The notes under the pieces were generated by a model. It had not been told where the DNA came from, ran no database searches, and worked only from the letters and a program-made list of their open reading frames with translations. Of a stretch of 64,000 nucleotides of DNA, positions 9,083-39,945 are shown piece by piece. The DNA lies in NCBI GenBank assembly GCA_016933335.1, contig JAFGBD010000025.1, positions 1-64,000 on the forward strand, written 5' to 3'. The stretch comes from Bacteroidales bacterium (GTDB taxonomy: Bacteria > Bacteroidota > Bacteroidia > Bacteroidales > UBA10428). Numbering within the stretch: position 1 is the first letter of the stretch; each line of letters starts with the position of its first letter. Position numbers and translations under genes: made by a program.

Positions 9083-9701
<619 letters not shown>

Positions 9702-10238
9702 TATGTTCCCTCCCTAATTATTAAAAAAATGATTATCGCCTGCGATAAATAAACATTATCTAAAAACAGCAGCAGCAGTATCAAAGATCCCTCCAAAGCA
9801 GAAATGTAAAATTCTCTGAATTAATGATTAAAGCTCAGTTTGAGTAATAATCATCACCTAAAGTTAAGGAGAATATTTACCTAATGCAAGCTTATTTAGA
9901 ATTATTTTAAATTAGATCGGGAACGTTGTTATGGATTGATATTAACGTCAGCGCTGTTGGTTTTGCTTATTTTACCTTTGTTAATAAAAGCAACTCTGTT
10001 ACTGGAATTGCATAAAAAAATGTTGAATCCCCAATACAGAATTAGCAAGTTCAGTTTGCACATAATGAGCCGCGCGGATATATCGATTATTTACCGGTTG
10101 GACACGTTCTGGAACAAGGGTTAAAATGGATGCATTTTCTACAACTTATAAATGCTGTTTTACTTTTGCAGAACTTGCATTTAATAAGCATATTGATAAA
10201 TAATTTTTATTTTATGGGTAAAAATCATATCTGTTTTT
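9702..10238. other. Intergenic spacer, no supported gene
   Basis: 537 bases between divergent transcripts. A 62-codon open frame at 9936-10124 is hydrophobic at its start and has no recognisable family or ribosome site; I do not call it. The right end holds the promoter of the plus-strand operon. No RNA gene recognised. Confidence 0.5.
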
Positions 10239-10271
10239 TTTGAAAATTCATTATTTATCAATATACCTTTG
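10239..10271 (+). promoter_or_regulatory. Bacteroidota-type promoter of the complex I-like operon
   Basis: TTTG at 10239-10242 and TACCTTTG at 10264-10271 match the Bacteroidota -33 TTTG and -7 TAnnTTTG elements with a 21-base spacer. Transcription would start near 10278, leaving about 50 bases of leader before the ATG at 10327. This argues against the longer reading of the first gene from 10240. Confidence 0.65.
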
Positions 10272-10326
10272 TGAAACAGATAACAATTGTTTATTATTCG
10301 CACAGGGTTTTTCAAAAATCAATTTA

Positions 10327-10848
10327 ATGAACAAACAAAAGCAGCATGAGAAGTATTCTGTAAGAAACTTTTTTTATTTGTTTATTATTCTCATGATTAT
10401 ATGGATGGCTCTTGCGTTGAGTTTGAATAAGCAGGAATTGTATACAGGAATTATAGTGAGTTTTGTTCTTTCCCTCGCATTATACAGGAGTTTTCAAATA
10501 ATAGGATTCCCAAAAGTCACTATCAGGAAGGTTGCTGCTCTCTGCATTTATATCATCGTCCTCTTCAAAGAAATAGTCATAGCCAATCTTGATGTAGCTT
10601 ATCGGGTTATACATCCGAAAATGCCTATAAAGCCGGGAATTGTTATCATTAAAACGGAGTTAAAGCAGGATCTGGCTAAAATGATTCTTGCCAATTCAAT
10701 TACCCTCACTCCGGGTACATTTACATTAAACATTGAGGAAGATCGCCTTTTAATTCACTGGATAAACGTAAAAACAGACGATATTGACGAAGCCACGCAA
10801 ATTATCGGAAAAAAATTTGAAAAATATCTGAAAATCATATTCAATTAA
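10327..10848 (+). CDS. mrpE: Mrp/Mnh antiporter subunit E-like protein (MbxA-like)
   Basis: 173 residues from MNKQKQHEKY; the upstream in-frame extension lies over the promoter. Two or three N-terminal membrane helices followed by a cytosolic domain with MILANSITLTPGTFTLNIE, the signature of MrpE/MnhE/MbhA. In Mbh/Mbx-type complexes this subunit is part of the ion-translocating membrane arm. It is separated from the other Mrp-type genes by a flavoprotein and an ArsR gene, an unusual arrangement. Confidence 0.9.
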   Translation: MNKQKQHEKYSVRNFFYLFIILMIIWMALALSLNKQELYTGIIVSFVLSLALYRSFQIIGFPKVTIRKVAALCIYIIVLFKEIVIANLDVAYRVIHPKMPIKPGIVIIKTELKQDLAKMILANSITLTPGTFTLNIEEDRLLIHWINVKTDDIDEATQIIGKKFEKYLKIIFN

Positions 10849-10863
10849 TCTTTTGAAATAATC

Positions 10864-12216
10864 ATGAAAAAGATGGGAAAGGAAATAGTTATTATTGGAG
10901 GAGGACCTGCCGGTGTAACAGCTGCCATTACGGCAAGAAGATACTACCCGGAGACAAATATTACTTTAATCCGTAAAGAAGAAAAAGCATTGATCCCATG
11001 TGGAATACCATACATGTTTGGAACTCTGGACTCGGCAGAGAAGAACCTGATTCCTGATCAGCTTCTTACAGGTAATAATATCAACCTGGTAATTGACGAG
11101 GCAAGTTCAATAGACAGAGATTCAGGAACCGTCATTACTTCAGCAGGTAAAAATTTTATTTACGATCGATTGATTCTTGCGTTAGGCTCATCTCCCTTGA
11201 TACCATCAATACCTGGGGTTGAACTAAATAATGTATATGCAGTCAGGAAGGATTTGGAATACCTTAAAGATCTGTCAAAAAAGCTGGATCAGTCAAAAGA
11301 TGTGGTAATAATCGGAGGAGGATTCATAGGGCTGGAATTTGCTGATGAATTTATGAAAAGAGGAAACCTGAAGGTTACAATTATTGAACTTCTTCCCCAT
11401 TGTTTGCTCCTTGCCTGTGACGAAGAGATTTGCAAACGCGTAGAAAACAAACTTTTAGAGAGAGGTGTGAATATCAATGTAGGGGCAAAGGCCGGAGCCA
11501 TTTCAGGCAAAAACCAGGTGGAGTATGTTGAATTGGAAAGCGGTGATAAGATTAAGGCAGATACTGTAATTCTGGGTATTGGGGTCAAACCGAATGTAAA
11601 TCTGGCGTTGGAATGCCACCTGGCTGCCGATGGAAGAGAGGGGATACAGGTAGATGATTTTATGCGGACCAGTGATGAAAATATATTCGCCATTGGTGAT
11701 TGCGCAAAGAAAAGGTGTTATTTAAGCGGACTGCCGAAAGGAGTCTGGCTGGCTTCTATGGGAACTACCGAAGCTCGAATTGCCGGTGCTAACCTTTTTA
11801 ATGTTCGCAGAAGGTCGGATTGTGCAATCGGCATCTTTTCTACCTGTTTTGGTGACTTGGCTGTTGGTTCAGCAGGACTAACCGAATCTGCAGCCAGAGA
11901 AATGGGAATGGATGTGGTAACAGGAGAATCTGTGGCTCCTGATAAACACCCTGGATCAATTCCCGGAGCTCAGGAATTGGGTATAAAACTGGTTTTTGAA
12001 AAGGATACTGGATTGCTGATAGGCGGACAAGTTTATGGTGGAGTATCGGTGGGTGAAAAGATCAACTTCATTGGAGCACTTATTCAACATAAAATGAGAG
12101 CTGATGAAGTATGTACCTTTCAAATGGGAACACACCCCCTTCTTACCGCTTCGCCTATTGCCTATCAGTTGATTAATGCAGCTCAGCTGGCCGTCATGAA
12201 ACTGAGAAAATCATAA
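10864..12216 (+). CDS. CoA-disulfide reductase / NAD(P)H sulfur oxidoreductase-like flavoprotein
   Basis: 450 residues. Two Rossmann motifs: FAD-binding IIGGGPAGVTAA (10-21) and NAD(P)-binding VVIIGGGFIGLEFADE near 143-158. The single redox cysteine C46 in IPCGIPY is that of CoA-disulfide reductase, NADH oxidase (Nox) and archaeal Nsr. Dimerisation domain at the C-terminus with FQMGTHPLLTASP. By family it reduces CoA-disulfides, persulfides or polysulfide, or O2, with NAD(P)H; which one is undecided. It sits 15 bases after mrpE, inside the operon for the Mbx-like complex, which favours sulfur or thiol redox. A paralog is at 38578. Confidence 0.85.
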   Translation: MKKMGKEIVIIGGGPAGVTAAITARRYYPETNITLIRKEEKALIPCGIPYMFGTLDSAEKNLIPDQLLTGNNINLVIDEASSIDRDSGTVITSAGKNFIYDRLILALGSSPLIPSIPGVELNNVYAVRKDLEYLKDLSKKLDQSKDVVIIGGGFIGLEFADEFMKRGNLKVTIIELLPHCLLLACDEEICKRVENKLLERGVNINVGAKAGAISGKNQVEYVELESGDKIKADTVILGIGVKPNVNLALECHLAADGREGIQVDDFMRTSDENIFAIGDCAKKRCYLSGLPKGVWLASMGTTEARIAGANLFNVRRRSDCAIGIFSTCFGDLAVGSAGLTESAAREMGMDVVTGESVAPDKHPGSIPGAQELGIKLVFEKDTGLLIGGQVYGGVSVGEKINFIGALIQHKMRADEVCTFQMGTHPLLTASPIAYQLINAAQLAVMKLRKS

Positions 12217-12240
12217 TGTTCGGAACAACCAGGATTATTG

Positions 12241-12510
12241 ATGAAAAAAAATTTTGAACAACTGGCAGATTGTATGAGAGCTTTAGGACATCCGATACGG
12301 TTGCAGATTGTGAAAGGTCTGATCAATAACGAATGCAACGTTACCCAGATTCAGCATAATTTAGGTATTCCGCAATCTACCATTTCCCAGCACCTGAAAG
12401 TTCTTAAAAATGCAGGAATTATTGAAAGCAGAAGAGAAGGAACAATGGTATGCTATAAAGTTATCGCTCATTGGGTCATAGAATTAATCACAGACATGCG
12501 AAAGAAATAA
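12241..12510 (+). CDS. ArsR-family winged-helix regulator
   Basis: 89 residues from the ATG at 12241 (the codon before is TTG, a possible but weaker start). Helix-turn-helix region IQHNLGIPQSTISQHLKVLK and wing ESRREGTMVCYKV. Three cysteines at 11, 32 and 71, none in a CxxC pair; C11 in LADCMRALGHP is at the site where several thiol- or sulfur-sensing ArsR proteins carry a Cys. No typical zinc-site His/Asp set was noticed. Between the flavoprotein and mrpF, so probably the local regulator of the operon. Confidence 0.9.
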   Translation: MKKNFEQLADCMRALGHPIRLQIVKGLINNECNVTQIQHNLGIPQSTISQHLKVLKNAGIIESRREGTMVCYKVIAHWVIELITDMRKK

Positions 12511-12515
12511 TTTTT

Positions 12516-12551
12516 TTGAATTCAATATCTGATAATTTGAATATACAAATT
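12516..12551. promoter_or_regulatory. Two palindromes between arsR and mrpF, possible operators
   Basis: TTGAATTCAA at 12516-12525 is a perfect palindrome and AATTTG-AATATA-CAAATT at 12534-12551 is a perfect 6+6 inverted repeat. They sit in the 67-base gap after the ArsR gene and could be its binding sites controlling an internal promoter. AT-rich sequence makes such repeats easy by chance. Confidence 0.35.
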
Positions 12552-12577
12552 CATAAATATAATTAAAACCGGTAGTT

Positions 12578-12829
12578 ATGACAACCTTGATTTTTATAAT
12601 TATCATCTGCATTGGAATTGTCCTCTGCATCATACGTATGGGGATTGGGCCTACAGCAGCAGACAGAGCAATCGCAGTGGATACAGCTACCACTGTTGTT
12701 GTTGCCTTGTTGGTATTACTCGGTTTTGTTTTTGACAGATATATATACCTGGATGTCGCTTTGGTTTATTCAATTGTCTCTTTTGTAGGATTAATAGCTA
12801 TTGCAAGATACTTAGAAAAAGGAATATAG
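12578..12829 (+). CDS. mrpF: Mrp subunit F-like protein (MbxB-like)
   Basis: 83 residues, three membrane helices, with the conserved RMGIGPTAADRAIAVDT stretch of MrpF/MnhF/MbhB. Part of the cation/proton-translocating module. One base separates its stop from the next start; the operon continues with overlaps. Confidence 0.9.
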   Translation: MTTLIFIIIICIGIVLCIIRMGIGPTAADRAIAVDTATTVVVALLVLLGFVFDRYIYLDVALVYSIVSFVGLIAIARYLEKGI

Positions 12830-12830
12830 T

Positions 12831-13157
12831 ATGGATATTTTCGGCATGATCATAACCGGTATTGGAGTTGTTTTTCTTTTCCTAGGCAGTTTGGGTATCC
12901 TCAGGATGCCGGATGTCTATAACAGGGTCCAGGTAGGAACGAAATGCACCACATTGGGTAATTTTTTAACCATTATCGGAGTTGGAATCATGCAACCGGA
13001 ATGGTTCTGGAAGACATTAATCATCGCGATATTTGTGCTTGTATCCAATCCTGTTTCAAGCCATGCACTAGGGAGAGCTGCCAGAAAGAACGGGATTTCA
13101 TTATGCGATAAAAGCATTGTGGATAAAACGGAAGAATTTAAAGAACATACTGAGTAA
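12831..13157 (+). CDS. mrpG: Mrp subunit G-like protein (MbxC-like)
   Basis: 108 residues, three membrane helices, with LGILRMPDVYNRVQVGTKCT and the PVSSHALGRAA motif, both diagnostic for MrpG/MnhG/MbhC. Membrane-arm subunit of the complex. Confidence 0.9.
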   Translation: MDIFGMIITGIGVVFLFLGSLGILRMPDVYNRVQVGTKCTTLGNFLTIIGVGIMQPEWFWKTLIIAIFVLVSNPVSSHALGRAARKNGISLCDKSIVDKTEEFKEHTE

Positions 13158-13159
13158 AT

Positions 13160-13399
13160 ATGGAAATAGTTATACTTATACTCGTCTTTCTTATGATTGT
13201 TTCGGCAATAGCAGCACTCATTTTTAAAGATTTGATGAATGCAGTAATTGCTTCTTGTGTAGTAAGTCTAATTGCAGCTGTTTTGTTTTATTTTCTTCAG
13301 GCACCCGATGTAGCCATGGCTGAAGCAGCTATTGGTGCTGCATTGGTAACGGGAATTTTTGTTATTGCTGTTAAAAGAACCAAAAGATTTGAAGAATGA
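13160..13399 (+). CDS. MbhD/MrpA C-terminal-like subunit
   Basis: 79 residues, three helices, with LMNAVIASCVVSLIAAVLFY and APDVAMAEAAIGAAL, the MbhD signature that also forms the C-terminal part of large MrpA. Stop overlaps the next start by four bases. Confidence 0.88.
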   Translation: MEIVILILVFLMIVSAIAALIFKDLMNAVIASCVVSLIAAVLFYFLQAPDVAMAEAAIGAALVTGIFVIAVKRTKRFEE

Positions 13400-14082
13400 G
13401 AAAGCTGATTAGCCTGATATTATTGGTAATAATTGCCGGAGGCATTGTATTATCATTAAAAGAAATACCTTTCGGTATTTCGAAAATAAAAATTGGTGAT
13501 TATTATATTAAAAAAGGAATAGAAGAAACGGGAGCCACAAACATTGTGACTTCAGTAGTGGTCAGTTACCGTGGATTTGATACATTGGGCGAAATTACCA
13601 TATTGTTTACTGCAGCCATAGGTTTATCAGCTGTTTTGGGTACCTACAGAAAGAGAAAAGCCGGTGAAAAAGTGGAACCGCCAAGTTTCATTGTTAAAAC
13701 CGGGTGCCGGTTTTTATTTCCAATTCTTCTTCTTGTTGGCGCCTACATCTTTATACACGGACATCTTACTCCCGGAGGCGGATTTCAGGGCGGGGCAATT
13801 ATTGCCTCTGCTTTCCTTCTCATGTATCTTGGATGCGAAGGAAAAAGGATCAATGAAAACACAAGCATAGTCGTTGAAGTTTTGGGGGCCTTAACATTTA
13901 TTGTATTAGGAATAATAGGCCTGACAATCGGAAAAGATTTTCTTTTCAATTTTTTACCCAAAGGAGAACCCAATACTCTGTTAAGTGCGGGTATTATTCC
14001 TGTCATATATATCGCGATCGGATTTAAAGTCGGTTCGGAATTAGCAGGCATTATTGATCACTTAATAGAGAAAAACCAATGA
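13396..14082 (+). CDS. mrpB: MbhE plus MrpB/MbhF-like fused membrane subunit
   Basis: 228 residues. The first 80 (IVTSVVVSYRGFDTLGEITI then an AAIGLSAVLG helix) are MbhE-like; the rest, with GHLTPGGGFQGGAIIASAF, is MrpB/MnhB/MbhF. In Mbh the two are separate genes; here they are one chain, as is also reported for Mbx-type clusters. Overlaps both neighbours by four bases. Confidence 0.88.
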   Translation: MRKLISLILLVIIAGGIVLSLKEIPFGISKIKIGDYYIKKGIEETGATNIVTSVVVSYRGFDTLGEITILFTAAIGLSAVLGTYRKRKAGEKVEPPSFIVKTGCRFLFPILLLVGAYIFIHGHLTPGGGFQGGAIIASAFLLMYLGCEGKRINENTSIVVEVLGALTFIVLGIIGLTIGKDFLFNFLPKGEPNTLLSAGIIPVIYIAIGFKVGSELAGIIDHLIEKNQ

Positions 14083-14438
14083 ATTTTTTAAGTGAATACA
14101 TCTATTATATTGGTGCTTTCAGCCTCATTTTTATTGGTTTGTTTATTGTACTGGCCAAAAAGAATCTGATCAAAGTTATTATTGGATTAAGTATTGTTGA
14201 TACAGGAATAAACCTGTTTCTTATCACCCTTGGCTATATCAGAGGAGGAACGGCTCCTGTATTTTCAAAACCGGGCCTGAAAGCGGAGAATATGGTTGAT
14301 CCGGTTCCGCAGGCCTTAGTTTTGACTGCCATTGTAATCGGAGTAGCTGTACTGGCCCTGGCACTGACTTTAGCTATCAAATTATACAAACATTACGGCA
14401 CCCTTAATCTGCGTAAAATAAAAGAACAAAAATGGTAA
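14079..14438 (+). CDS. mrpC: Mrp subunit C / NuoK-like protein (MbxG-like)
   Basis: 119 residues, three helices. IVDTGINLFLITLGYIRGG and DPVPQALVLTAIVIGVAVLA are typical of MrpC/NuoK, with the conserved acidic residue in the middle helix. Overlaps the next gene by seven bases. Confidence 0.92.
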   Translation: MNFLSEYIYYIGAFSLIFIGLFIVLAKKNLIKVIIGLSIVDTGINLFLITLGYIRGGTAPVFSKPGLKAENMVDPVPQALVLTAIVIGVAVLALALTLAIKLYKHYGTLNLRKIKEQKW

Positions 14439-15907
14439 ACCCGATACTCTTAATTGTCATACCATTAGGTCTTGCATTTGTTGTTCCGCTTTTCAGATTT
14501 ATTTCGAAGAAAATCGAAAAGTTTATTCCTTTTTTTGCCTTGCTCGCAAATCTTATCATATCCCTGACACTTTTTCCTCATGTTTTGGAAAAACCCATTC
14601 ATGTTTCCATAGGAGGTTTCCTTCCTCCCCTGGGCATTAATCTTGTTGCAGGACCGCTGGGAATTTTATTTGCCATGCTTATAGCACTGGTTGGTTTCCT
14701 GGTTTCGATTTATGCATTTGCTTATATAAAAGAAAAGGATCAGGAAAAATACCATATACTTTATCTGCTTTTACTAACCGGCGCTACGGGAGTGGTTCTT
14801 ACCGGCGACATATTCAACCTCTTTGTTTTTTTTGAAATTCTTTGTATTTCTTCTTATTCTCTGGTAGCTTATTTCGGAGATAAGCCCGGTATCGAATCTG
14901 CCGTAAAGTATCTCATTCAGGGGGCTGTTGGATCGAGTTTGGTACTTATTGGTATAGGTTTGCTTTATGGTCAGTTCGGAACACTTAATATGGCTGATAT
15001 TGCCAGCAATATCCATTCGGTTCATTCCATTTCAGTTTTTATACCGTTGGTTTTGTTAATTACCGGCTTTGGGGTCGAAGCAGCAATTTTCCCTCTCAAT
15101 GCCTGGTTGCCGGATGCACACTCTTCTGCTCCTTCATCCATAAGTGCCATTTTATCAGGAATAGCCATTGAAGTGGGCCTCTATGCAATTGTGAGAGTTG
15201 TGTTTACTTTATTTGGAGCTTCAAGTATCCTGACCTTCCTGTTATTTTTAGGGGTGATCACATTATTGATTGGTGAATTATGTGCTTTCAACCAGGAAAA
15301 CATCAAAAGAATGCTTGCCTATTCAAGTATAGGACAAATCGGCCTCATAGTGTTTGCCTTATCAATCGGTTCACTTTCCGGGATAAACGGGGGATTATTT
15401 CAACTGGTGAGTCATACGCTTTCAAAGGCTTTGTTGTTCCTGGCCGCAGGATACATGATATTCCGTAGCGGTTCGATGAATATTTCTTCGTTCGAAGGCA
15501 TGGGAAAAAAAATGCCTTATACTTCATTCGCTTTTACAATTGGTGCTTTCTCTATCGTAGGATTACCTCCATTCATAGGCTTTCCGGGTAAATTTATGAT
15601 ACTGAAAGCGGCATTATTCGAACAGGATATCTTGTTTACAATACTTGTTTTTCTCATCCTGCTGGCAACCATCATCGAGGGAGCCTATTTCTTCAGGGTA
15701 GTGCAGACTATTTATTTTAAAGGTGAAAAAAGCACCCCTGGCCAGGAACGGGAGATCGCCCCATTAAGTGTTTTAATACCTGTATTCATTTTTGTGGGAC
15801 TGATAGTGGTGATAGGAATATATCCAAAGCTGATAACAGAGATACTGGAATCATCCGCTTCAGAATTATTGAACAGAGCTGATTATATAAAAAACATTCT
15901 GCCATGA
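14432..15907 (+). CDS. mrpD: MrpD/MbxH-like proton-conducting subunit with Glu in place of two channel Lys
   Basis: 491 residues, about 14 helices. The conserved Glu of helix 5 is present (E135 in FFEILCISSY). In the following half-channel the usual Lys of GxxxKxAxFPLH is Glu (E216 in GFGVEAAIFPLN) and the Lys of LSxxxxKxGxY is also Glu (E247 in SGIAIEVGLY). The sister subunit at 15904 keeps both Lys. This may reflect a subfamily with different ion chemistry. Four-base overlap with the next gene. Confidence 0.9.
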   Translation: MVNPILLIVIPLGLAFVVPLFRFISKKIEKFIPFFALLANLIISLTLFPHVLEKPIHVSIGGFLPPLGINLVAGPLGILFAMLIALVGFLVSIYAFAYIKEKDQEKYHILYLLLLTGATGVVLTGDIFNLFVFFEILCISSYSLVAYFGDKPGIESAVKYLIQGAVGSSLVLIGIGLLYGQFGTLNMADIASNIHSVHSISVFIPLVLLITGFGVEAAIFPLNAWLPDAHSSAPSSISAILSGIAIEVGLYAIVRVVFTLFGASSILTFLLFLGVITLLIGELCAFNQENIKRMLAYSSIGQIGLIVFALSIGSLSGINGGLFQLVSHTLSKALLFLAAGYMIFRSGSMNISSFEGMGKKMPYTSFAFTIGAFSIVGLPPFIGFPGKFMILKAALFEQDILFTILVFLILLATIIEGAYFFRVVQTIYFKGEKSTPGQEREIAPLSVLIPVFIFVGLIVVIGIYPKLITEILESSASELLNRADYIKNILP

Positions 15908-17760
15908 ATCTGAGTATTATACTCGCAATTGCTTTTGGTGGTGCTTTATTAACTTATTTTTCAGGAAAAATATCGAAAAAGGCAAGGGATGTTTTAGCTG
16001 TACTGATTTCCCTGGTTATAGCAGTTATTCTTGCTTTCTTTTATAATACTTCTTCCCGGGAGATTTTTTATACAGGATTTTTAGATTTTCCACTTATTTT
16101 AAGAATAGACACATTTTCATGGTTTTTTGCTTTTACCATTGCTGTTATAGGTTCATTCTCAATAATTTTCTCCTTAAGTTATATAAGAAAAAAAGGAAAC
16201 ACAGACTATTACTACACCATGATGTTGCTGGTCATTGCAAGTATGATAGGAATTATATTGTCCGGCGACCTGGTATCATTCTATATATTCTGGGAAATTA
16301 TGTCATGGAGCACATTTCTTCTTATAAGCTACAATCGTGGCCCCGCGATTGCCGCCGGAATAAAGTACATCATAATGTCTGTGACTGGTTCTGTGGCAAT
16401 GCTTGTCGGTATTATTTCGTTGTATTCACATTACGGTACGGTAATATATACAGAACTCTCCGGACTTCTTTATAATGCTTCATCAGGATATACAATATTC
16501 ATTTTTGTTCTGTTTTTTATCGCACTGGGAATTAAGAATGCCATATGGCCACTTCATGTCTGGCTCCCTCCGGCACATTCAGAAGCGCCCTCTCCGTTCA
16601 GCGCTGTTCTTTCCGGCACCCTGATAAAAATAGGCACTTACGGTATCATTTTGTTGATATATGTAATTGTCAAAATCAATGTTTTTCTGAATCTGGGTGA
16701 AGGTATCGTAAGCGCCCGTTATATAATTGCCGTTACCGGAGCCATTACAATCCTCATTCCCACTTTTATTGCCCTGCTCCAGGATGATGCCAAAAGACTT
16801 CTTGCCTGGTCCACTATCGCACAGGCGGGGTATATCATTTTAGGAATTGCTTATGGTACAAGCGAAAGTGTGGCCAGTGGCATGTTTCACTTTTTTAACC
16901 ATGCCATTTTTAAAGCTCTTCTTTTTATGGTTGTCGGGGCAGTTGAATACCGGACAAACGGAGTAAGGGACCTGAATTCACTCGGAGGCTTAATTAAAAA
17001 AATGCCTGTCACTTTTGTTGGTGGATTGATTGGTATTTGCGGACTGATAGGGGTACCGTTAACGAACGGATTTGTTTCAAAATGGCTGATTTATAAAACG
17101 TTGATAATTAATAACTCTCCCTTCCTTGCATTTGCTGCATTATTGGGTACCTGGGGAACCATATTGTACAGTTATAAATTACTGCATAATATGTTCCTGG
17201 GTCAGCTGCCTGAAAAATACGAAAAGTTGGAAAGAGCCCCATTTTCTATGCAATTGCCAATTGTGATTCTTTCGCTTGCAATCATACTGTTTGGTATTCT
17301 TCCCGGATTACCGCTTAAGGTTATTAACTCCATTGAATCGGGTTTTGGTCTGGAACCTTTAACGATAAATATATGGGGAATTACCTCGGATACAGGTACA
17401 ATAAATATGCTTAACCTGTTCGTTGCTGTCTTTTTAATTGGTATAATGATATGGTTGATATTCAAAGGAAGTAAAAAATCAGCAGGAATTGGTCAGTACG
17501 ACAACTATGCCGCCGGAACAACAGTTCCGAAGAATAAATACCACTATTCAGTTGATTTTTATGGTCCTCTGCACAGAATGATCAGTCCGTATCTGAGAGA
17601 TTTCATCGATGATTTTTACATGAGCCTTGCACGGAGCATTAAAAATCTGGGCAATGGAATACGACGAATTTATACAGGAGATGTCGGATATTATGCAATA
17701 TATATCATGCTGTTTCTTGCATTATTAATTTTTATTCAAATAAAATGGAAGTTATGGTAA
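15904..17760 (+). CDS. NuoL/MbxH'-like proton-conducting subunit
   Basis: 618 residues, about 14 core helices plus a C-terminal extension ending in a further helix (YAIYIMLFLALLIFI). Channel Lys present in GIKNAIWPLHVWLPP and SGTLIKIGTYG; Glu in FYIFWEIMSWS. A second antiporter-like subunit after the MrpD type, as in mbx (H and H'). The stop TAA overlaps the ATG of the NuoH-like gene by one base. Confidence 0.9.
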   Translation: MNLSIILAIAFGGALLTYFSGKISKKARDVLAVLISLVIAVILAFFYNTSSREIFYTGFLDFPLILRIDTFSWFFAFTIAVIGSFSIIFSLSYIRKKGNTDYYYTMMLLVIASMIGIILSGDLVSFYIFWEIMSWSTFLLISYNRGPAIAAGIKYIIMSVTGSVAMLVGIISLYSHYGTVIYTELSGLLYNASSGYTIFIFVLFFIALGIKNAIWPLHVWLPPAHSEAPSPFSAVLSGTLIKIGTYGIILLIYVIVKINVFLNLGEGIVSARYIIAVTGAITILIPTFIALLQDDAKRLLAWSTIAQAGYIILGIAYGTSESVASGMFHFFNHAIFKALLFMVVGAVEYRTNGVRDLNSLGGLIKKMPVTFVGGLIGICGLIGVPLTNGFVSKWLIYKTLIINNSPFLAFAALLGTWGTILYSYKLLHNMFLGQLPEKYEKLERAPFSMQLPIVILSLAIILFGILPGLPLKVINSIESGFGLEPLTINIWGITSDTGTINMLNLFVAVFLIGIMIWLIFKGSKKSAGIGQYDNYAAGTTVPKNKYHYSVDFYGPLHRMISPYLRDFIDDFYMSLARSIKNLGNGIRRIYTGDVGYYAIYIMLFLALLIFIQIKWKLW

Positions 17761-18659
17761 TGACTACTATACTCGAAATCATATTCATCATTTTGTTGGC
17801 AGGTATCATCGGACTGTTTTTTCTTGGATTATCAAGAAAAATAATGGCAAGAATTCACTGGCGTTACGGGCCACCTATCACTCAGCCGCTTATAGATATC
17901 ATCAAACTGTTCAATCAGACAAGCATGAGTCATGGGTTCTTATTTAATTTCGGAATCATTTTCTCTCTGGCAGGCTCTGTTGTTGTGCTGTTATTTCTTC
18001 CTTTTGGAAGAATATGCCCTTTAAGCGACTCGGGAGGATTGCTTGTTATCCTTTACCTCATGCTTATTGCCCCTTTAGGATTGGCACTGAGTGGTGGTGA
18101 AGCCGCCAATCCCTATACAAGTATCGGAATATCCAGGAAGTTGCTGTTAGCCTTTGGTTATGAGCTTCCCCTATTGCTTATTCTTCTAACTGTAATGACA
18201 CATTATAATACCATTTCCATTGTTGAAATAGTCAACAAACAATTCCAGGCAGGATGGTCTTTTCAGCACCTTTCTTTGCTTTTGCCAGGCATTGCTTATA
18301 TTTTAATCCTTCCTGCCATATTGGGTTTCCGGCCTTTTGAATTGATCCAGGCACCGCAGGAAATTTCATCGGGGCCTATGGCCGAATACAGTGGTAAATT
18401 TTTGGCACTCACAACCATACAACATGCTTTTAATATATTTATCAGCATATCCCTTTTTACAAATCTATTTTTGGGAGGAGCTGCAAATCCGGGATATTTC
18501 TTTTTAAAAATACTCGCAGTATTTGTTATTTTTCTTTTTGCTAATGCTGTTTTTCCGCGCTTCAGAATAGAGCAGGCCATCAAATACCTGTGGAGATGGC
18601 CAAGTATACTGGCATTTGCAGGGTTGATTATTGTTTTAATAACCGGTAAGAATTTTTAA
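17760..18659 (+). CDS. NuoH/HyfC-like membrane anchor subunit (MbxM-like)
   Basis: 299 residues from the ATG at 17760, which overlaps the previous stop as TAATG; upstream in-frame ATGs at 17745 and 17754 are alternatives. Eight or so helices with ARIHWRYGPPITQPLIDIIK, SGGEAANPYTSIGISRK and PFELIQAPQEISSGPMAEYS, the conserved cytosolic loops that contact the peripheral arm and line the quinone-cavity region in complex I. Confidence 0.92.
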   Translation: MTTILEIIFIILLAGIIGLFFLGLSRKIMARIHWRYGPPITQPLIDIIKLFNQTSMSHGFLFNFGIIFSLAGSVVVLLFLPFGRICPLSDSGGLLVILYLMLIAPLGLALSGGEAANPYTSIGISRKLLLAFGYELPLLLILLTVMTHYNTISIVEIVNKQFQAGWSFQHLSLLLPGIAYILILPAILGFRPFELIQAPQEISSGPMAEYSGKFLALTTIQHAFNIFISISLFTNLFLGGAANPGYFFLKILAVFVIFLFANAVFPRFRIEQAIKYLWRWPSILAFAGLIIVLITGKNF

Positions 18660-18671
18660 AACTGATTGGAT

Positions 18672-19250
18672 ATGGATAGGAACAATCTAGGTAAATGGCT
18701 CAAATCGCCGGGCAAAATGGGACAAAAGTATTCGCTCCATGCCTTGTATTTTTGTACGGGTTGCGGAATCATTGAAATACCTCCAAGTATAACAACACGC
18801 TGGGATGCGGAGAGGTTTGGTGTAATTCCTGTTGCCACACCCAGGCAGGCAAACCTGTTTTTAATCACAGGATATGTTTCTGTTAAAACTTTAAGATATA
18901 TTATCCGTTCCTACGAACAGATGCCCGAGCCCAAGTTTACCGTCGGATTCGGATCATGTCCGATTAACGGGGGAATGTACTGGGACTCCTATAACACCAT
19001 TAAGCATCTGGACAAATATATTCCTGTTGACGGCTGGATTGCAGGATGTATGCCCAGGCCCGAAGCCGTGTTTGTTGCTGTAACCCATTTGTGGACATTA
19101 ATTGACAAGGGAATGGCAGATGGCTATAATAAGTACAGGGCTAATTATCAATATTACAGGGAAAACCAGGAAAAAATTCTGGGGAAACTGGAATGGCCGC
19201 CATTGTTTTCAAAAAATATAAAACATGAAGAATACAGGACAATTGCTTAA
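18672..19250 (+). CDS. NuoB-like Fe-S subunit (MbxJ-like)
   Basis: 192 residues from ATG 18672. The proximal cluster ligands are C28, C31 (FCTGCGIIE), C96 (GFGSCPINGG) and C126 (AGCMPRPE). A C-x2-C spacing for the first pair is the hydrogenase/Mbx form; true NuoB has adjacent cysteines. Passes electrons between the Fe-S chain and the NuoD-like subunit. Overlaps the NuoC-like gene by 26 bases. Confidence 0.92.
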   Translation: MDRNNLGKWLKSPGKMGQKYSLHALYFCTGCGIIEIPPSITTRWDAERFGVIPVATPRQANLFLITGYVSVKTLRYIIRSYEQMPEPKFTVGFGSCPINGGMYWDSYNTIKHLDKYIPVDGWIAGCMPRPEAVFVAVTHLWTLIDKGMADGYNKYRANYQYYRENQEKILGKLEWPPLFSKNIKHEEYRTIA

Positions 19251-19743
19251 GGAAAAACTGTTATTGTCATTTGAAGATATTCAGGCAGAGGTTTCTGATG
19301 AACACAGGCTGACTGTCAATTGCAGGAAAGATACGGTTATTACAGTGTTAAGTTTCCTGAATAACAGTGGATATGATCACCTGGCGCTCATATCCTGTGT
19401 AGACTGGATAAAAGATAATGTATTGGAACTTGTATATATTCTTACAGCATATGCCGAAGACAAAGGTAAAGCAAAAATGAATATACTGGTTAAAACAAGA
19501 ATAACAAGGGAAAAACCAGGATTGCACACGGTTATTCCTGTTTTTGAAAATGCCGAACCCTATGAACGCGAATTGCACGAGCTTTATGGTATACATTTTA
19601 TGGGCCACCCGAGATTAACGCCGCTTTTCCTTGAAAGGGAATATAAAATACCTCCGTTCAGGAAAGACTTTGATACACGAAAATATGTACAGGAAGTTTT
19701 TGATCAGATTCCTTTTGTTGAAGACAAAAAAGCGGAAAAATGA
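19225..19743 (+). CDS. NuoC (30 kDa)-like subunit (MbxK-like)
   Basis: 172 residues. ERELHELYGIHFMGHPRLTP and YKIPPFRKDF form the 30 kDa-subunit signature. No cofactor; structural partner of the NuoB/NuoD-like pair. Overlaps the next gene by four bases. Confidence 0.92.
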   Translation: MKNTGQLLKEKLLLSFEDIQAEVSDEHRLTVNCRKDTVITVLSFLNNSGYDHLALISCVDWIKDNVLELVYILTAYAEDKGKAKMNILVKTRITREKPGLHTVIPVFENAEPYERELHELYGIHFMGHPRLTPLFLEREYKIPPFRKDFDTRKYVQEVFDQIPFVEDKKAEK

Positions 19744-20837
19744 GAGAACTTGAACTATATTTTGGTCCGCAGCATCTCGGGATGGTAGGTAATTTCAGCA
19801 TTACCTTAAATGTTGAAGGAGACCGTATTGTCAAGGCAACTGCCAATCCCGGATTTCTTCATCGCGGCTTCGAAAAGCTCATGGAACAGCGGACATGGAT
19901 ACAGAATTTTCCTTTGGTCTGCCGGATTAATGTTGTGGAACCTGATCATATGGAATTGATGTATGCCATGGCAGTTGAAAAATTAGCCGGTATTGAGGTT
20001 CCAGAAAGAGCCCGGTTTATAAGAAGCATTTACCTCGAGCTTGCCAGGATCGGTTCTCACTTGTTTGGTTTATGGGCTTATGCCAATATGCTGGGATTCG
20101 ATACAGTGGCCAACTGGGCAATGTATCACCGCGATCTGGTACTGGATCTTTTTGAAGAACTTACGGGAGGCAGGGTTTATCACATATACATCTGGCCAGG
20201 CGGTGTACGGCGTGATTTCCCGGAAGGATTTAAGGATAGAATAATAAATACATTACATACCATCGGAAGTTGTGTACCCGATTATGATAACACATTTTTT
20301 AACAACCGTGTATTTTACAAGCGTGCCAAAAACATAGGAAAAATAACATGCGAAGAAGCAAAAAGGATGGGTGCTGTCGGACAGGTGCTCAGAGCTACCG
20401 GCATGAAACAGGATATCCGGAAAACAGAACCCTATGCAGCCTATGATCAGGTAGACTGGGAAATTCCCGTAAGAACTGACGGAGATGCTTACTCACGAAT
20501 CTGGGTTGTACGGGATGAAATGATTGAAAGCGTCCACATGATATTCAAATTGCTGGATAAAATGCCGGAAGGGGAAGTCTATAACAAGATTCCCAATCCC
20601 TTTAAATGGAAGATTCCGGATAAAGATGCTTATGTGAGATGCGAATCATCGAGAGGTGAACTGGGGCTTTATCTGGTGAGCAACGGCGGGGATAAACCAT
20701 ACAGGGCACACTTTAGGACGCCATCCTATAATCATGGTTTGACCATTTTGGAAAAAGCGCTTGAAAATGAAAGCATTGCCGATGTAGGCAATATCATGAT
20801 CAGTTTATATATAACAGCTCCGGAAATTGACCGGTAA
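19740..20837 (+). CDS. NuoD (49 kDa)-like subunit lacking [NiFe] ligands (MbxL-like)
   Basis: 365 residues. GPQHLGMVGNFSITLNVEGD and NPGFLHRGFEKLMEQR mark the family. Group 4 hydrogenases carry two CxxC motifs that bind the Ni-Fe site. Here the first reads LVCRINVVEPDHM, with one Cys (C61), and the C-terminus reads LYITAPEIDR, with none. So it is not a hydrogenase. The enzyme could reduce sulfane sulfur as in MBS, or simply link the Fe-S chain to the membrane arm. Followed after 18 bases by the fusion gene. Confidence 0.9.
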   Translation: MRELELYFGPQHLGMVGNFSITLNVEGDRIVKATANPGFLHRGFEKLMEQRTWIQNFPLVCRINVVEPDHMELMYAMAVEKLAGIEVPERARFIRSIYLELARIGSHLFGLWAYANMLGFDTVANWAMYHRDLVLDLFEELTGGRVYHIYIWPGGVRRDFPEGFKDRIINTLHTIGSCVPDYDNTFFNNRVFYKRAKNIGKITCEEAKRMGAVGQVLRATGMKQDIRKTEPYAAYDQVDWEIPVRTDGDAYSRIWVVRDEMIESVHMIFKLLDKMPEGEVYNKIPNPFKWKIPDKDAYVRCESSRGELGLYLVSNGGDKPYRAHFRTPSYNHGLTILEKALENESIADVGNIMISLYITAPEIDR

Positions 20838-20855
20838 AAAAATGGAGGAAGCAAA

Positions 20856-22706
20856 ATGACAGGCAACAGTATTCTGAGCCCTTTTAATGCAGTTAAATAT
20901 CTTTTTGTTAAACCAAAGACAATCCGGTATCCTTTTGAACCAAAAGAACCTGCTCAAAGGTACAGGGGATTTCATGTGAACGATTGGGAAAAATGCACAG
21001 GCTGTGGCAATTGTGCAGATATTTGTCCCAACCAGGCCATTCAAATGATAAAAATGCCTGAACTGGAATCCAAATCGGGTCAAAAAAATGAACGGCCCCG
21101 GTTGGATTACGGCAGATGCTGTTTTTGCGGATTATGTGTTGATATATGTCCTCCAGGTTCACTGAAACTTACGAGGGATTATTTTCATATTCATTTTGAC
21201 CCGAAAACCTTTGTGTTTATTCCCAAGGACCAAAAAACAGAACCCGGAAAATATATGTCTGCTGAAGATTATTCTGTTCTGAAAGCAAGCTTATCGCATC
21301 GTAAAAAAGATTATGAAGGCTTTGTTTCTGATCTTAAGTTTGCTTTATTTGAACCCGATAGAGTCACAATGCCCATGATTGATCCTGATGTACGGAAACT
21401 TTCATTTATTGAGCAGGTAGTGGGTTATAACCCGGAAGAAGCAAAGAAAGAAGCCTCCCGCTGTCTGGAATGCAGACTATGTGAAGAGGCGTGCCCGGCA
21501 CATCTGAAAATCTCCGATTATATACAGGCAATATATGAAGATAAACCGGAGGAATCCCTGAAAAAAATCTATGAAGACAATCCTATCCCTTCAATTTGTG
21601 GAAGAGTTTGTATGGCCTATTGCGAGCAGGCTTGTTCATTGAGCATCAGGGGAGAAGCGCTGTCAGTAAGATGGCTTAAAAGATATGCAGCCGATACAAT
21701 CAAAGATTTTATAACAGCCCTGGAATTAAAGCCGGGTACATCTACCGGAAAAAAGATTGCTGTCATCGGCGCTGGTCCGGGTGGTTTATCCGTGGCTTAT
21801 TTTCTCCGGTTAAAAGGACATGAGGTCAATGTATACGATGCTTTACCCGGGGGCGGAGGAACAATGAGAACCGGTCCGCCTGTCTACAGGTTGCCGCTGG
21901 AAAGCATTGATAAAGATGTTAATTATATAAGATCCCTGGGCGTTGAATTCATATTCAACACCCGTATAGGTAAAGATGTATTTTTTGAAGATCTTCTGAA
22001 AGAATATGATGCTGTTTTTCTTGGAACAGGAAATACAAAGAGTCGTTCCACCAAAGTTAAAAATTATGAAAAATGCGAACTGGCCTTCGACTTTCTGAGT
22101 GATAATAAAATTGGGAAGCAACGGAAGGTTGGAAAAGAAATAATAGTCATTGGAGGTGGAAATGTAGCTCTCGATGTTGCCCGGGAAGCATTGCGATTGC
22201 AAAATATACAATATCCCGGTGAAAATATTGCTGTTAAAACCGTTTCACTTGAAGACTGGCATGAAATGCCGGCAACAAAAGAGGAGATAGAAGAGGCCAA
22301 AGAAGAAAAAATCCAGTTCAATCCTGCCTGGGGACCTAAAGAAGTGGTGTTGGATAATGATGGGAATGTTAAAGGCCTTTTGTGCAAAAAAGTGAAATCG
22401 GTATTTGACAAGGAGGGCAGATTTGCTCCCACTTTTTATGAAGAAAATGAAATGTTTCTGGAAGGGGATATGATCATTGAGGCTGTTGGTCAGGCTCCTG
22501 ATTTTTCATTTATACCTGAAAACCTTTTTGAAAAACTTGAATTTACAGAAAGAAAAAAAGTAAAAGTAGATGAAAAGGGAATGACATCAATCCGGAAGGT
22601 TTTTGCCGGAGGGGATATTGTAAATGTTAACCTTGATGCGGTTACAGCCATAGCAGATGCAAAAGTTGCTTCTGTGGGCATAGATGCATTCCTGTCCGGA
22701 AAATAA
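20856..22706 (+). CDS. NuoI-like ferredoxin subunit fused to GltD/NfnB-like NAD(P)H oxidoreductase
   Basis: 616 residues in one frame with a strong ribosome site (GGAGG before ATG). Residues 1-115 are NuoI/MbxN-like with two [4Fe-4S] motifs (C47-C50-C53-C57 and C88-C91-C94-C98). Residues 195-265 match the GltD/NfnB N-terminus (C203-C206-C209-C213 and C248-C252-C256-C260). Then an FAD Rossmann motif (VIGAGPGG, 303-310), an NAD(P)H Rossmann motif (VIGGGNVALD, 431-440) and the final FAD segment AGGDIVNVNLDAVTAIADA. It would give the complex its own NAD(P)H site and four clusters leading to the NuoB-like subunit. Direction of electron flow is unknown. Confidence 0.92.
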   Translation: MTGNSILSPFNAVKYLFVKPKTIRYPFEPKEPAQRYRGFHVNDWEKCTGCGNCADICPNQAIQMIKMPELESKSGQKNERPRLDYGRCCFCGLCVDICPPGSLKLTRDYFHIHFDPKTFVFIPKDQKTEPGKYMSAEDYSVLKASLSHRKKDYEGFVSDLKFALFEPDRVTMPMIDPDVRKLSFIEQVVGYNPEEAKKEASRCLECRLCEEACPAHLKISDYIQAIYEDKPEESLKKIYEDNPIPSICGRVCMAYCEQACSLSIRGEALSVRWLKRYAADTIKDFITALELKPGTSTGKKIAVIGAGPGGLSVAYFLRLKGHEVNVYDALPGGGGTMRTGPPVYRLPLESIDKDVNYIRSLGVEFIFNTRIGKDVFFEDLLKEYDAVFLGTGNTKSRSTKVKNYEKCELAFDFLSDNKIGKQRKVGKEIIVIGGGNVALDVAREALRLQNIQYPGENIAVKTVSLEDWHEMPATKEEIEEAKEEKIQFNPAWGPKEVVLDNDGNVKGLLCKKVKSVFDKEGRFAPTFYEENEMFLEGDMIIEAVGQAPDFSFIPENLFEKLEFTERKKVKVDEKGMTSIRKVFAGGDIVNVNLDAVTAIADAKVASVGIDAFLSGK

Positions 22707-22730: not shown

Positions 22731-23615
22731 ATGAGAGAATTAATTGGTGTGAAACAAAATTCAAAATCGCTTTCATTATTTTTCACATACCACAATAAAA
22801 AGGGTATCTTTATTTTATATGCTACAATATTTATCATGGGCCTTTTTTCTTTTTGTGCAGACAAAGACAAGGCGGAAAAAGCATCTCCTTTTTTTGTTGA
22901 ATCTGAAACCGAAAAACCGGAAATCGTTTTAATTTCTGTTTATGATAACTACATGGTAAATCCGGAACTAAAAACTTCATGGGGTTTTGCATGCGTTATA
23001 GAAACACCGGCAGAAAAATTATTGTTCGATACTGGAGGTGATCCTGTGATTTTGCTTTCCAATATGCAAAAAATGAATATTGATCCCGGGTCAATTGACA
23101 AAGTAATTATTTCTCATGTTCATGGAGATCATGCAGGCGGTTTAGAAGGATTTTTAGAAAAGAATAATGATGTTACCGTGTTTATCCCGGCTTCCTTTCC
23201 AGGTTCGATTAAAAATATGATCATCAATGAAGGAGCTGGATTTATAGTGATCTCTGAGGCTAAAAAAATTTCTGATTTTATATATTCTACCGGAGAACTT
23301 GAAGGCCCTCCCCAAGAGCAATCTATAATAATAGATTCGAAAAAAGGATTAATCGTGATTACCGGTTGTGCTCATCCCGGAATTGTAAAGATTGTAGAAA
23401 AGGCCAAACAACTGATGGAAAAAGACAGCTTATATCTTGTAACAGGAGGTTTCCATAATCCTCCCATGGCTGTGGTTAAAAAGTTCAGAGCACTTGGAGT
23501 AAAAAAAGTTGCACCGTCACATTGCACGGGTGATCGCGTCAGGGAGGCATTTTCACAAGAATATAAAGAAGATTTCATAGAATACGGAGTAGGGAGAAGA
23601 ATTGAGATAAAATAA
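22731..23615 (+). CDS. Exported MBL-fold hydrolase, likely lipoprotein
   Basis: 294 residues. After a basic N-terminus there is one hydrophobic helix (IFILYATIFIMGLFSF) ending in Cys, a plausible lipobox. Metal-binding motif SHVHGDHAGG, then TGCAHPGI and a late TGGFH and PSHCTGDR, as in the MBL group related to dihydropterin-methyl-aminobenzene phosphate synthase. It lies 24 bases after the fusion gene, so probably the last gene of the operon. A cytosolic paralog is at 40609. Substrate unknown. Confidence 0.82.
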   Translation: MRELIGVKQNSKSLSLFFTYHNKKGIFILYATIFIMGLFSFCADKDKAEKASPFFVESETEKPEIVLISVYDNYMVNPELKTSWGFACVIETPAEKLLFDTGGDPVILLSNMQKMNIDPGSIDKVIISHVHGDHAGGLEGFLEKNNDVTVFIPASFPGSIKNMIINEGAGFIVISEAKKISDFIYSTGELEGPPQEQSIIIDSKKGLIVITGCAHPGIVKIVEKAKQLMEKDSLYLVTGGFHNPPMAVVKKFRALGVKKVAPSHCTGDRVREAFSQEYKEDFIEYGVGRRIEIK

Positions 23616-38577: not shown

Positions 38578-39945
38578 TTATTTCTGATCTTTCTTCAGTA
38601 CATTATAAATAATTTCTTCTGCCGCTCTGATTATCGGATTTACTACCGGTGAAGAGGTCAGTAACGGGTGTGTACCGATTTGAAAAGACACGAGTTCAAA
38701 TACAGTAATGGATTTCTGGATGGCCATACTGATGATATTAATGATCTCACCGGCCGATTTTCCACCCCATGCTTCACCGCCTATTATGCTTCCATCAACG
38801 GGCGAAGCATAAAGCTTTACTGTAAGATCAGATGCATCGGACAATGTTCCGGGATGCCTGTCCGGAGATGTGAATTTGGCCGATATGAGTTCAATCCCGG
38901 CTTCTTCAGCATTTTTTTCATTGGCACCTGCAGCCGCCATTGCCAGTCCGTTTATTTCGGTAGAAAATACTCCCAGTGTTCCTGCTGAACATTTCTTAAT
39001 TCTGACCCCGAAAATATTATGACCAAGAATGCGGGCTTCTGCTGTTGCGGTTGAAGCAAGTTTAATCATATCACTCCGGCCTGTCAGAAAACCAAATGTC
39101 TGGGCACAGTCACCAACTGCGCTGATATCTTTAATCGATGTGCGGCCATACTGATCTACATGAATATCACCATATTTGTTTAGTTCCAGCCCTGTTTTCT
39201 TTGCCAGTTGGGTATTGGCTCTGTAACCTATTGAAAGAATAACCGCATCAGCATCTATTCTTTGCCCGTCAGACAAAACGACCTGTTTAACTCTGTTGTT
39301 TTCACCGGCTATTTCCTTAACTAAAGAAGATGTAAGCACTTTAACACTCGTATTTCTCAGGGCTTCAGTTGCAATCTTACTCAGTTCGGGGGAGAATGCC
39401 TTTGAAAAGCATTCTGATTCGCTTTCTATTAATGTAACGGTCAAACCGGAAGCTGCAATTTGTTCAGCCACCTCAGCTCCGATAAATCCCCCGCCAATAA
39501 TGACGATGTTACTGAAGCCGTTTATTTTTGAGGCTAAATCTTTGATATACAAGTAATTCTTCTTAATGTAAAAAACATTTTCAAGTTCATGGCCTGGAAT
39601 AAAGTCAGGTATCTGCGGGAGAGATCCTGTTGCAAAGACCAGCTTTTTGTATCCTAACTGTTCACCGGTTTTCACGGTAACTGTTTTCTTTATTTTATCG
39701 ACAGCTTCTGCCATACTTATCAATACTTCTCCTCCTAAATCAACAAATGGCTTGGGTCCCATTTTATTCTTATCTGCATCGTTGCCAAGCAGGTGAAAGA
39801 TATAAGGAATCCCGCAGGGTACAAGTCCTTCAGTATCTTCCTTGATCATAAGCACCGATTTGTTCTTAGAGAATTTCTTTATGGTTATTCCGGTTACGAT
39901 GGCAGCCGGACCGCCTCCGATAATGATTACATCATAGTTTTTCAT
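38578..39945 (-). CDS. CoA-disulfide reductase-like flavoprotein, second copy
   Basis: 455 residues. FAD motif IIIGGGPAAIVTG (7-19), redox C44 in VPCGIPY, NAD(P) motif IVIIGGGFIGAEVAEQ, C-terminal FQIGTHPLLTSSP. Paralog of the operon-embedded protein at 10864 with the same end motif. Likely NAD(P)H-dependent disulfide, persulfide or O2 reductase. Followed by the methyltransferase. Confidence 0.85.
   Translation of the reverse strand: MKNYDVIIIGGGPAAIVTGITIKKFSKNKSVLMIKEDTEGLVPCGIPYIFHLLGNDADKNKMGPKPFVDLGGEVLISMAEAVDKIKKTVTVKTGEQLGYKKLVFATGSLPQIPDFIPGHELENVFYIKKNYLYIKDLASKINGFSNIVIIGGGFIGAEVAEQIAASGLTVTLIESESECFSKAFSPELSKIATEALRNTSVKVLTSSLVKEIAGENNRVKQVVLSDGQRIDADAVILSIGYRANTQLAKKTGLELNKYGDIHVDQYGRTSIKDISAVGDCAQTFGFLTGRSDMIKLASTATAEARILGHNIFGVRIKKCSAGTLGVFSTEINGLAMAAAGANEKNAEEAGIELISAKFTSPDRHPGTLSDASDLTVKLYASPVDGSIIGGEAWGGKSAGEIINIISMAIQKSITVFELVSFQIGTHPLLTSSPVVNPIIRAAEEIIYNVLKKDQK

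Follow-up and report, generated by a model that had tools for sequence, protein, structure and literature searches.

Results

Gene order at the locus

The window, by which we mean the whole 64,000-nucleotide stretch of DNA that we analysed, belongs to an assembly of 4.05 Mb (G000, contig C34). A co-directional run of genes extends from mnhE through an NfnB-type gene (10327-22706), and a gene for a metallo-beta-lactamase (MBL)-fold protein follows it. An earlier note on this DNA had placed a flavoprotein gene and an arsR gene physically inside an mbx-like operon. The coordinates, the shared direction and the mnhE and mnhF flanks confirm this placement: the ORFs lie at 10864-12216 (+) and 12241-12510 (+), and they form a co-directional insert (10864-12510) in an MBS/Mbx-type operon, with mnhE on one side and mnhF on the other. 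The gaps mnhE/flavoprotein, flavoprotein/arsR and arsR/mnhF measure 15, 24 and 67 bp, and the genes are probably co-transcribed. The features are as follows.

10239-10271, +, candidate Bacteroidota-type promoter TTTG-N21-TANNTTTG upstream of mnhE, in a block conserved with the sister species
10327-10848, +, mnhE, Mrp subunit E, first gene of the operon (PF01899 MNHE, 2e-39)
10864-12216, +, single-Cys FAD/NAD(P)H oxidoreductase, THP clade of the CoADR/Nsr superfamily (C46 in PCGIPY, T423-H424-P425)
12241-12510, +, ArsR-family putative repressor, 89 aa, C11/C32/C71 (HTH_5/ArsR)
12535-12550, no strand, candidate operator, palindrome ATTTG-N6-CAAAT between arsR and mnhF, conserved with the sister species
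12578-12829, +, mnhF (PF04066)
12831-13157, +, mnhG (PF03334)
13160-13399, +, mbhD-like gene (PF13244)
13396-14082, +, mbhE+mnhB fusion (PF20501, PF04039)
14079-14438, +, mnhC (PF00420)
14432-17760, +, two MrpD/MbxH-type antiporter subunits (14432-15907 and 15904-17760; PF00361)
17745-18659, +, mbxM (NADHdh; PF00146)
18666-19250, +, mbxJ, gap-free alignment to MbsJ (6u8y_J) including FCTGCG, GSC and AGC
19225-19743, +, mbxK (PF00329)
19740-20837, +, mbxL, closest solved chain MbsL (6u8y_L), without the NiFe Cys
20856-22706, +, NfnB-type flavoprotein with an N-terminal 4Fe-4S (NuoI/MbxN-like) region
22731-23615, +, MBL-fold protein, last gene

At the sister-species locus, no copy of the MBL-fold gene lies directly 3' of the NfnB-type gene. 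A TonB-dependent receptor with a CarboxypepD_reg domain is also encoded in the window; together with the TAnnTTTG promoter, it makes Bacteroidota the probable phylum.

The complex resembles MBS

Among solved chains, MbxL matched MbsL of the Pyrococcus furiosus MBS best (338 bits, compared with 234 for complex I and 155 for MbhL of MBH). MbxJ aligned to MbsJ without a gap through FCTGCG, GSC and AGC, the motif of the polysulfide-reducing cluster of MBS. The operon thus has the MbsJ-type shortened cluster motif and the L subunit without NiFe cysteines that mark MBS/Mbx complexes, and its Mrp module is complete, including two MrpD-type subunits. MbxL also lacks the equivalents of C85 and C385, two residual cysteines that MBS has kept and that mutagenesis showed to be dispensable (PMC7684303). 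In MBS, the shortened MbsJ motif provides no Cys ligand for one iron of the proximal cluster, and it is this cluster that reduces polysulfide (PMC7684303). Because MbxL and MbxJ match MBS, whose motif-bearing cluster reduces polysulfide, a polysulfide-type reaction by the complex of the window is plausible.

We found no separate gene for an MbxN ferredoxin-like subunit; the 4Fe-4S region is fused to the NfnB-type flavoprotein. With its N-terminal ferredoxin-like region, this protein (20856-22706) stands in for a separate MbxN, and a homologue lies 3' of mbxL in nearly all other related Mbx operons. A literature search on Mbx in Bacteroidota returned nothing on point.

The two inserts occur independently

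The arrangement of complex, flavoprotein and ArsR, whose conservation the earlier note had suggested checking, is not conserved as a unit, and each insert was found without the other. Nor is the insertion unique to this genome, as two Latescibacterota have the flavoprotein and a sister species has the ArsR. In the sister species (G001), the order is mnhE-arsR-mnhF, with an ArsR that is 82-83% identical and no flavoprotein; over the remainder of the operon, as far as the NfnB-type gene, identity is 74-95%. Elsewhere in G001 there is no orthologue of the flavoprotein, and the best match (40%) groups with the second paralogue of the window. Thus, the flavoprotein is not essential to the complex, because the sister species does without the gene. 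In the two Latescibacterota (L083/G410 and G424), the order is mnhE-flavoprotein-mnhF, with no ArsR. Here the flavoprotein is 72% identical, the subunits are 64-80% identical, and mnhF starts one base past the flavoprotein stop codon. A search for MbxL in 64 Latescibacterota genomes returned nothing; because one of the two relevant contigs stops within mnhG and the other within mbxM, this result reflects no more than truncation of the MAGs at these points. Genes for a Rex repressor and a sulfhydrogenase-beta/AsrA-like protein lie just upstream of mnhE in G424 (L218:4625-6397), and in G410 the corresponding place is taken by a gene with the same opening sequence.

In 17 other related Mbx operons from the same taxonomic order with a complete mnhE-mnhF junction, mnhE is directly joined to mnhF (26-104 bp between matches), and the best subunit matches to the window reach 35-60%. 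An arsR gene inside the operon was found in two genomes only. The operon looks horizontally transferred, judging from its 64-80% identity to Latescibacterota compared with 60% or less to the other related Mbx operons that we found. From the three arrangements, the simplest history would be that the flavoprotein gene was in the operon before it passed between the Latescibacterota and the genus, or before it reached both from a third source. The arsR gene would then have been added in the genus, and the flavoprotein gene would later have been lost in G001.

The flavoprotein belongs to a distinct clade

The 450-aa flavoprotein has Pyr_redox_2 and Pyr_redox_dim domains in a profile search. Its best NCBIfam model is CoA-disulfide reductase (CoADR; 246 bits, below the cut-off of 578.8), and the NOXase_Strep model gave 162 bits (below the cut-off of 600). 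Compared with the PDB, CoADR chains scored 186 bits, whereas NADPH/NADH oxidase chains of the Lactobacillus/Streptococcus type scored 116 at most. In a tree of 121 proteins, made by a short search under a simple model and with a long-branch warning near the root, the flavoprotein falls in a clade of 96 (SH-aLRT 100, stem 0.97) from many bacteria and archaea, mostly anaerobes. PhCoADR, Shewanella NPSR, Bacillus CoADR-Rhd, E. faecalis CoAPR and A. fulgidus NoxA-3 lie outside this clade, as do the rhodanese-fused enzymes of the window's relatives. Within it, the window and Latescibacterota flavoproteins group with an SH-aLRT of 100, independent of the root.

The alignment shows what marks the clade. 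Cys46 in PCGIPY, Thr423, Pro425, Pro431 and Glu303 are each present in 96/96 members, and His424 in 93/96. At the positions of Thr423, His424, Pro425, Pro431 and Glu303, rows outside the clade have Tyr, mostly Ala, Pro, a gap and mostly Gln, respectively. The Tyr of YAP is found in 24/24 non-clade rows that cover the site (the PhCoADR row ends before it). The flavoprotein therefore has the single redox Cys of CoADR/Nsr enzymes (C46, in (N/P)CG(I/L)PY) and lacks their C-terminal YAP(P) Tyr, with T423-H424-P425 where CoADR and NPSR have Tyr-Ala-Pro. The separate clade, the missing Tyr and the score below cut-off rule out orthology to Nsr or CoADR, and the label 'Nsr-type' in the earlier note does not hold at the level of the family. 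This separate, well-supported clade, mostly of anaerobes, is apparently uncharacterised.

The earlier note had named a grouping with O2-reducing Nox enzymes as a ground for refutation; the flavoprotein does not look like such an enzyme. We rejected a Nox identity on scores (162 bits compared with 246; 116 compared with 186 in the PDB) and motif, since no Lactobacillus/Streptococcus-type Nox sequence is in the tree. H2O-forming Nox enzymes carry a catalytic His in GxxHAG, where the flavoprotein has GGGPAG. The string THPxLTASP resembles HPTLSE of lipoamide dehydrogenase and glutathione reductase, in which the His acts on the thiol of the partner subunit; we take this resemblance as a lead.

Elsewhere, clade genes lie near MinD-type ATPase genes (29/81 loci) and also near NifX-like, DUF5320 and MBL genes. 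We take this neighbourhood to be an orange-protein-like setting (L083-L162, L035). Because many clade loci adjoin MinD-ATPase/NifX-like genes and not sulfur genes, the role of the flavoprotein may lie elsewhere. An arsR gene adjoins a clade member upstream in Peptoclostridium and downstream in a deltaproteobacterium. In Moorella, a CsoR/CstR-family gene (PF02583, L085:9482-9748) is directly upstream of a clade member, and its product has, by eye, no His at the copper-ligand position. The window encodes a second clade member at 38578-39945 (-), which shares 38% identity with the first. Several genomes of the family, that of the sister species among them, encode relatives of this second member, and MBL-fold, ArsP_2 and DUF169 genes are near it in the window.

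The ArsR protein is related to CoADR-linked regulators of Bacillota

The listed TTG start of arsR (12238) immediately precedes an ATG (12241), and the protein has 89 aa. It scored 86.7 bits with the HTH_metalloreg model, above the cut-off of 55. It contains three cysteines (C11, C32 and C71) and no CxxC, exactly as the earlier note had described. The parallel to SurR that was drawn there stands at the level of function only; by structure it fails, as the protein has 89 aa, one HTH_5 domain and no CxxC. BigR is the best PDB match, and the NCBIfam BigR model gave 62 bits compared with a cut-off of 155. K25 occupies the first position of the BigR/SqrR Cys pair, and the protein ends before the second. 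TsoR was a weak NCBIfam match, and we found no paper under that name.

Homologues past 1e-15 were found in 2 of 395 sampled genomes, the window itself aside. The closest relatives are mostly outside the phylum, in Bacillota, at up to 59% identity. In a genome of the same family and another genus (G006), a 48% identical homologue adjoins a DsrE gene. A CoADR gene is directly adjacent and co-directional to arsR in 21 of the 30 best Bacillota loci (L249-L278), a count that is inflated by near-copies since some loci come from close relatives. In 4 of these 21, the CoADR gene visibly reads into the Rhd-TusA-DsrE2 part of a fusion, and the Acetoanaerobium homologue adjoins a CoADR-Rhd-TusA-DsrE2 gene. 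None of nine distant ArsRs (32-43%) of the window's relatives adjoins a CoADR-type gene. The ArsR of the window is the nearest neighbour of the CoADR-linked Bacillota group in a tree, with weak support (86/49); it shares with this group up to 59% identity and an accompanying CoADR-superfamily gene, here 24 bp away. These neighbours support the suggestion of a second, independent link to sulfur or thiols. A literature search on ArsR with CoADR in Clostridia returned nothing on point, and the pairing of an ArsR group with CoADR genes in Bacillota is apparently undescribed.

The Bacillota relatives all have C22, nearly all have C40, most have C32 and some have C71. The ArsRs of the window and G001 have C11, C32 and C71, without C22 and C40. 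In an AlphaFold model (pLDDT 90), C32 is part of a short beta bridge that precedes the recognition helices, and C71 belongs to the last (second) wing strand. Because strands of these two types are neighbours in the winged-helix fold, a C32-C71 pair is plausible in the predicted structure.

Regulatory DNA

The 16-bp palindrome between arsR and mnhF, ATTTGAATATACAAAT, is identical in G001 (L066:8179-8194), where the flanks differ. It is the longest block common to the two arsR-mnhF intergenic stretches, and 0/500 shuffles gave a block as long. The next outer pair is A..T in the window and T..A in G001 and is complementary in both. The palindrome pattern alone has a chance expectation of 0.66 per window. 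The promoter pattern TTTG-N21-TAnnTTTG, with 2 matches in the window compared with a chance mean of 3.1, is not significant alone. In 9500-13200, scans for sigma-70 promoters and for terminators yielded no more matches than shuffled sequence did, and no -33/-7 promoter could be defined for mnhF.

Discussion

We propose that a sulfur-type flavoprotein and a thiol-sensing ArsR serve a polysulfide-reducing complex of the MBS/Mbx type. We give this explanation as a whole about an even chance (roughly 0.5). The product of the operon would be an ion-pumping, polysulfide-reducing complex. The flavoprotein would be a soluble enzyme that uses NAD(P)H to reduce sulfane sulfur or a low-molecular-weight persulfide or disulfide, a substrate that we guess from its superfamily. 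C46 would be the redox thiol next to FAD, and H424, by analogy from the partner subunit, may take the place of the CoADR-type Tyr. The enzyme would work beside the complex; one sulfur reduction would draw on NAD(P)H and the other on ferredoxin/NfnB. We propose that the ArsR is a repressor, related to the regulators adjoining CoA-disulfide/persulfide reductase genes, and that it binds the candidate palindrome at 12535-12550 and perhaps the mnhE promoter too. Sulfane sulfur may modify its thiols, most likely the C32/C71 pair, and so release it from DNA.

We favour a role in sulfane-sulfur or thiol-redox chemistry for the two inserts, given two associations that were found independently: the Bacillota neighbours of the ArsR, and the superfamily chemistry of the flavoprotein in an MBS-like operon of two phyla. 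Our results also suggest that in these organisms, as elsewhere, the complex has a link to sulfur chemistry. A larger reading would make the locus a self-contained sulfur-respiration cassette of an MBS-type complex, a new enzyme class and a new ArsR sensor of sulfane sulfur, with an undescribed family of CoADR-regulating ArsRs in Bacillota besides. The enzyme would then combine a single Cys with a His-Pro motif like that of GR/LPD at its dimer interface, and the sensor would use a cross-strand C32/C71 pair and not the CxxC of SurR or the pair of BigR. We regard this larger reading as doubtful.

It is possible that the ArsR senses a metal(loid) (Zn, Cd or As) in the ordinary way, that the operon it regulates just happens to be a Na+/H+-translocating one, and that the flavoprotein is unrelated to its signal. 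The protein passes the cut-off of the HTH_metalloreg subfamily, its three cysteines could bind metal, and ArsP_2, a putative heavy-metal exporter, is encoded elsewhere in the window. However, the CxC of the ArsR-type As site is missing, the close relatives adjoin CoADR and DsrE genes rather than metal exporters, and the operon has no metal-resistance gene. Thus, we consider a metal signal unlikely.

We think it quite improbable that the flavoprotein is an electron-input or redox-poise module that links NAD(P)H to the NfnB-type subunit or ferredoxin and reduces no sulfur. Its active-site Cys is invariant and its dimerisation domain is present, both traits of thiol/disulfide-type enzymes, whereas ferredoxin reductases, to our knowledge, have no active-site Cys. 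In addition, the NfnB-type subunit already supplies an NAD(P)H site, and other Mbx operons manage without the flavoprotein. Such a module would fit the Latescibacterota junction, where mnhF follows the flavoprotein stop codon so closely, and a superfamily that includes ferredoxin and rubredoxin reductases.

Neutral genome traffic, in which a flavoprotein gene hitch-hiked with the operon when it was acquired, arsR landed in it and neither matters to the complex, would explain why presence and absence vary inside the genus, and the operon does look horizontally transferred. Yet two phyla have retained the flavoprotein, 72% identical, at one and the same position, the ArsR was retained between species with its cysteines and the adjacent palindrome, and the two independently recruited genes each have a sulfur or thiol association, all of which makes mere traffic very unlikely. 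Least likely of all is an NADH oxidase that protects the complex by reducing O2 or peroxide, as the NOXase_Strep match and the superfamily membership would allow, but CoADR models and PDB CoADR chains score higher, most clade members come from anaerobes, and GGGPAG lacks the His of Nox/Npx.

The assignment of bacterial Mbx to sulfur metabolism rests mostly on its homology with archaeal MBS and on co-expression seen in Thermotoga. Because two independently recruited genes in one operon each carry a sulfur or thiol association, the substrate question for bacterial Mbx becomes testable. The locus also exposes a broad, apparently uncharacterised flavoprotein clade of anaerobes with a changed active site, and an ArsR group that is repeatedly coupled to CoADR genes and of which we found no description in the literature. 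New here are the physical linkage of the genes, the change in the active site and an unrelated regulator; the Thermotoga and Thermococcales precedents are not one operon.

In Thermotoga maritima, S0 induces nsr as well as mbxA (PMC9431562). There, as proposed for the window, a CoADR-superfamily NAD(P)H flavoprotein, NSR (TM0379), goes with an Mbx complex under S0, but the genes are separate, NSR is of the canonical family, and the described operon has no ArsR (PMC9431562). In Thermococcales, SurR controls nsr and mbs; it has about 220 aa and two wHTH domains, with a CxxC in the N-terminal one (PMC12162507). The Pyrococcus/Thermococcus system resembles our proposal in combining a sulfur-type flavoprotein, an MBS complex and a thiol-sensing wHTH regulator (PMC12162507, PMC7684303), and the motif layout of MbxJ is identical to that of MbsJ. 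That system is not one operon, however, and its two-wHTH regulator with a CxxC differs from the 89-aa ArsR with C11/C32/C71; the operon of the window also has the NfnB-type subunit gene at its 3' end. The persulfide sensors BigR and SqrR share the ArsR fold and the thiol sensing that we propose, but their Cys pair is absent from the ArsR of the window.

The Bacillota loci with ArsR and CoADR or CoADR-Rhd-TusA-DsrE2 are alike in that an ArsR (up to 59% identical) adjoins a single-Cys CoADR-superfamily gene. They differ in that C22 is present in their ArsRs, and C40 in nearly all of these, that the flavoproteins they encode match canonical CoADRs, and that no Mbx operon adjoins them. A likeness to the pair of inserts is seen in Peptoclostridium acidaminophilum (EAL2_RS12585-RS12590), where an ArsR gene (49%) is followed by a gene for a THP-clade flavoprotein (46%). 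We rejected a single mobile cassette for the pair, as the Peptoclostridium flavoprotein is not sister to that of the window and each insert occurs alone. In P. acidaminophilum, unlike the window, arsR comes first and there are no Mbx genes; DUF5320, DUF134, MBL and Mrp/NBP35 genes lie nearby.
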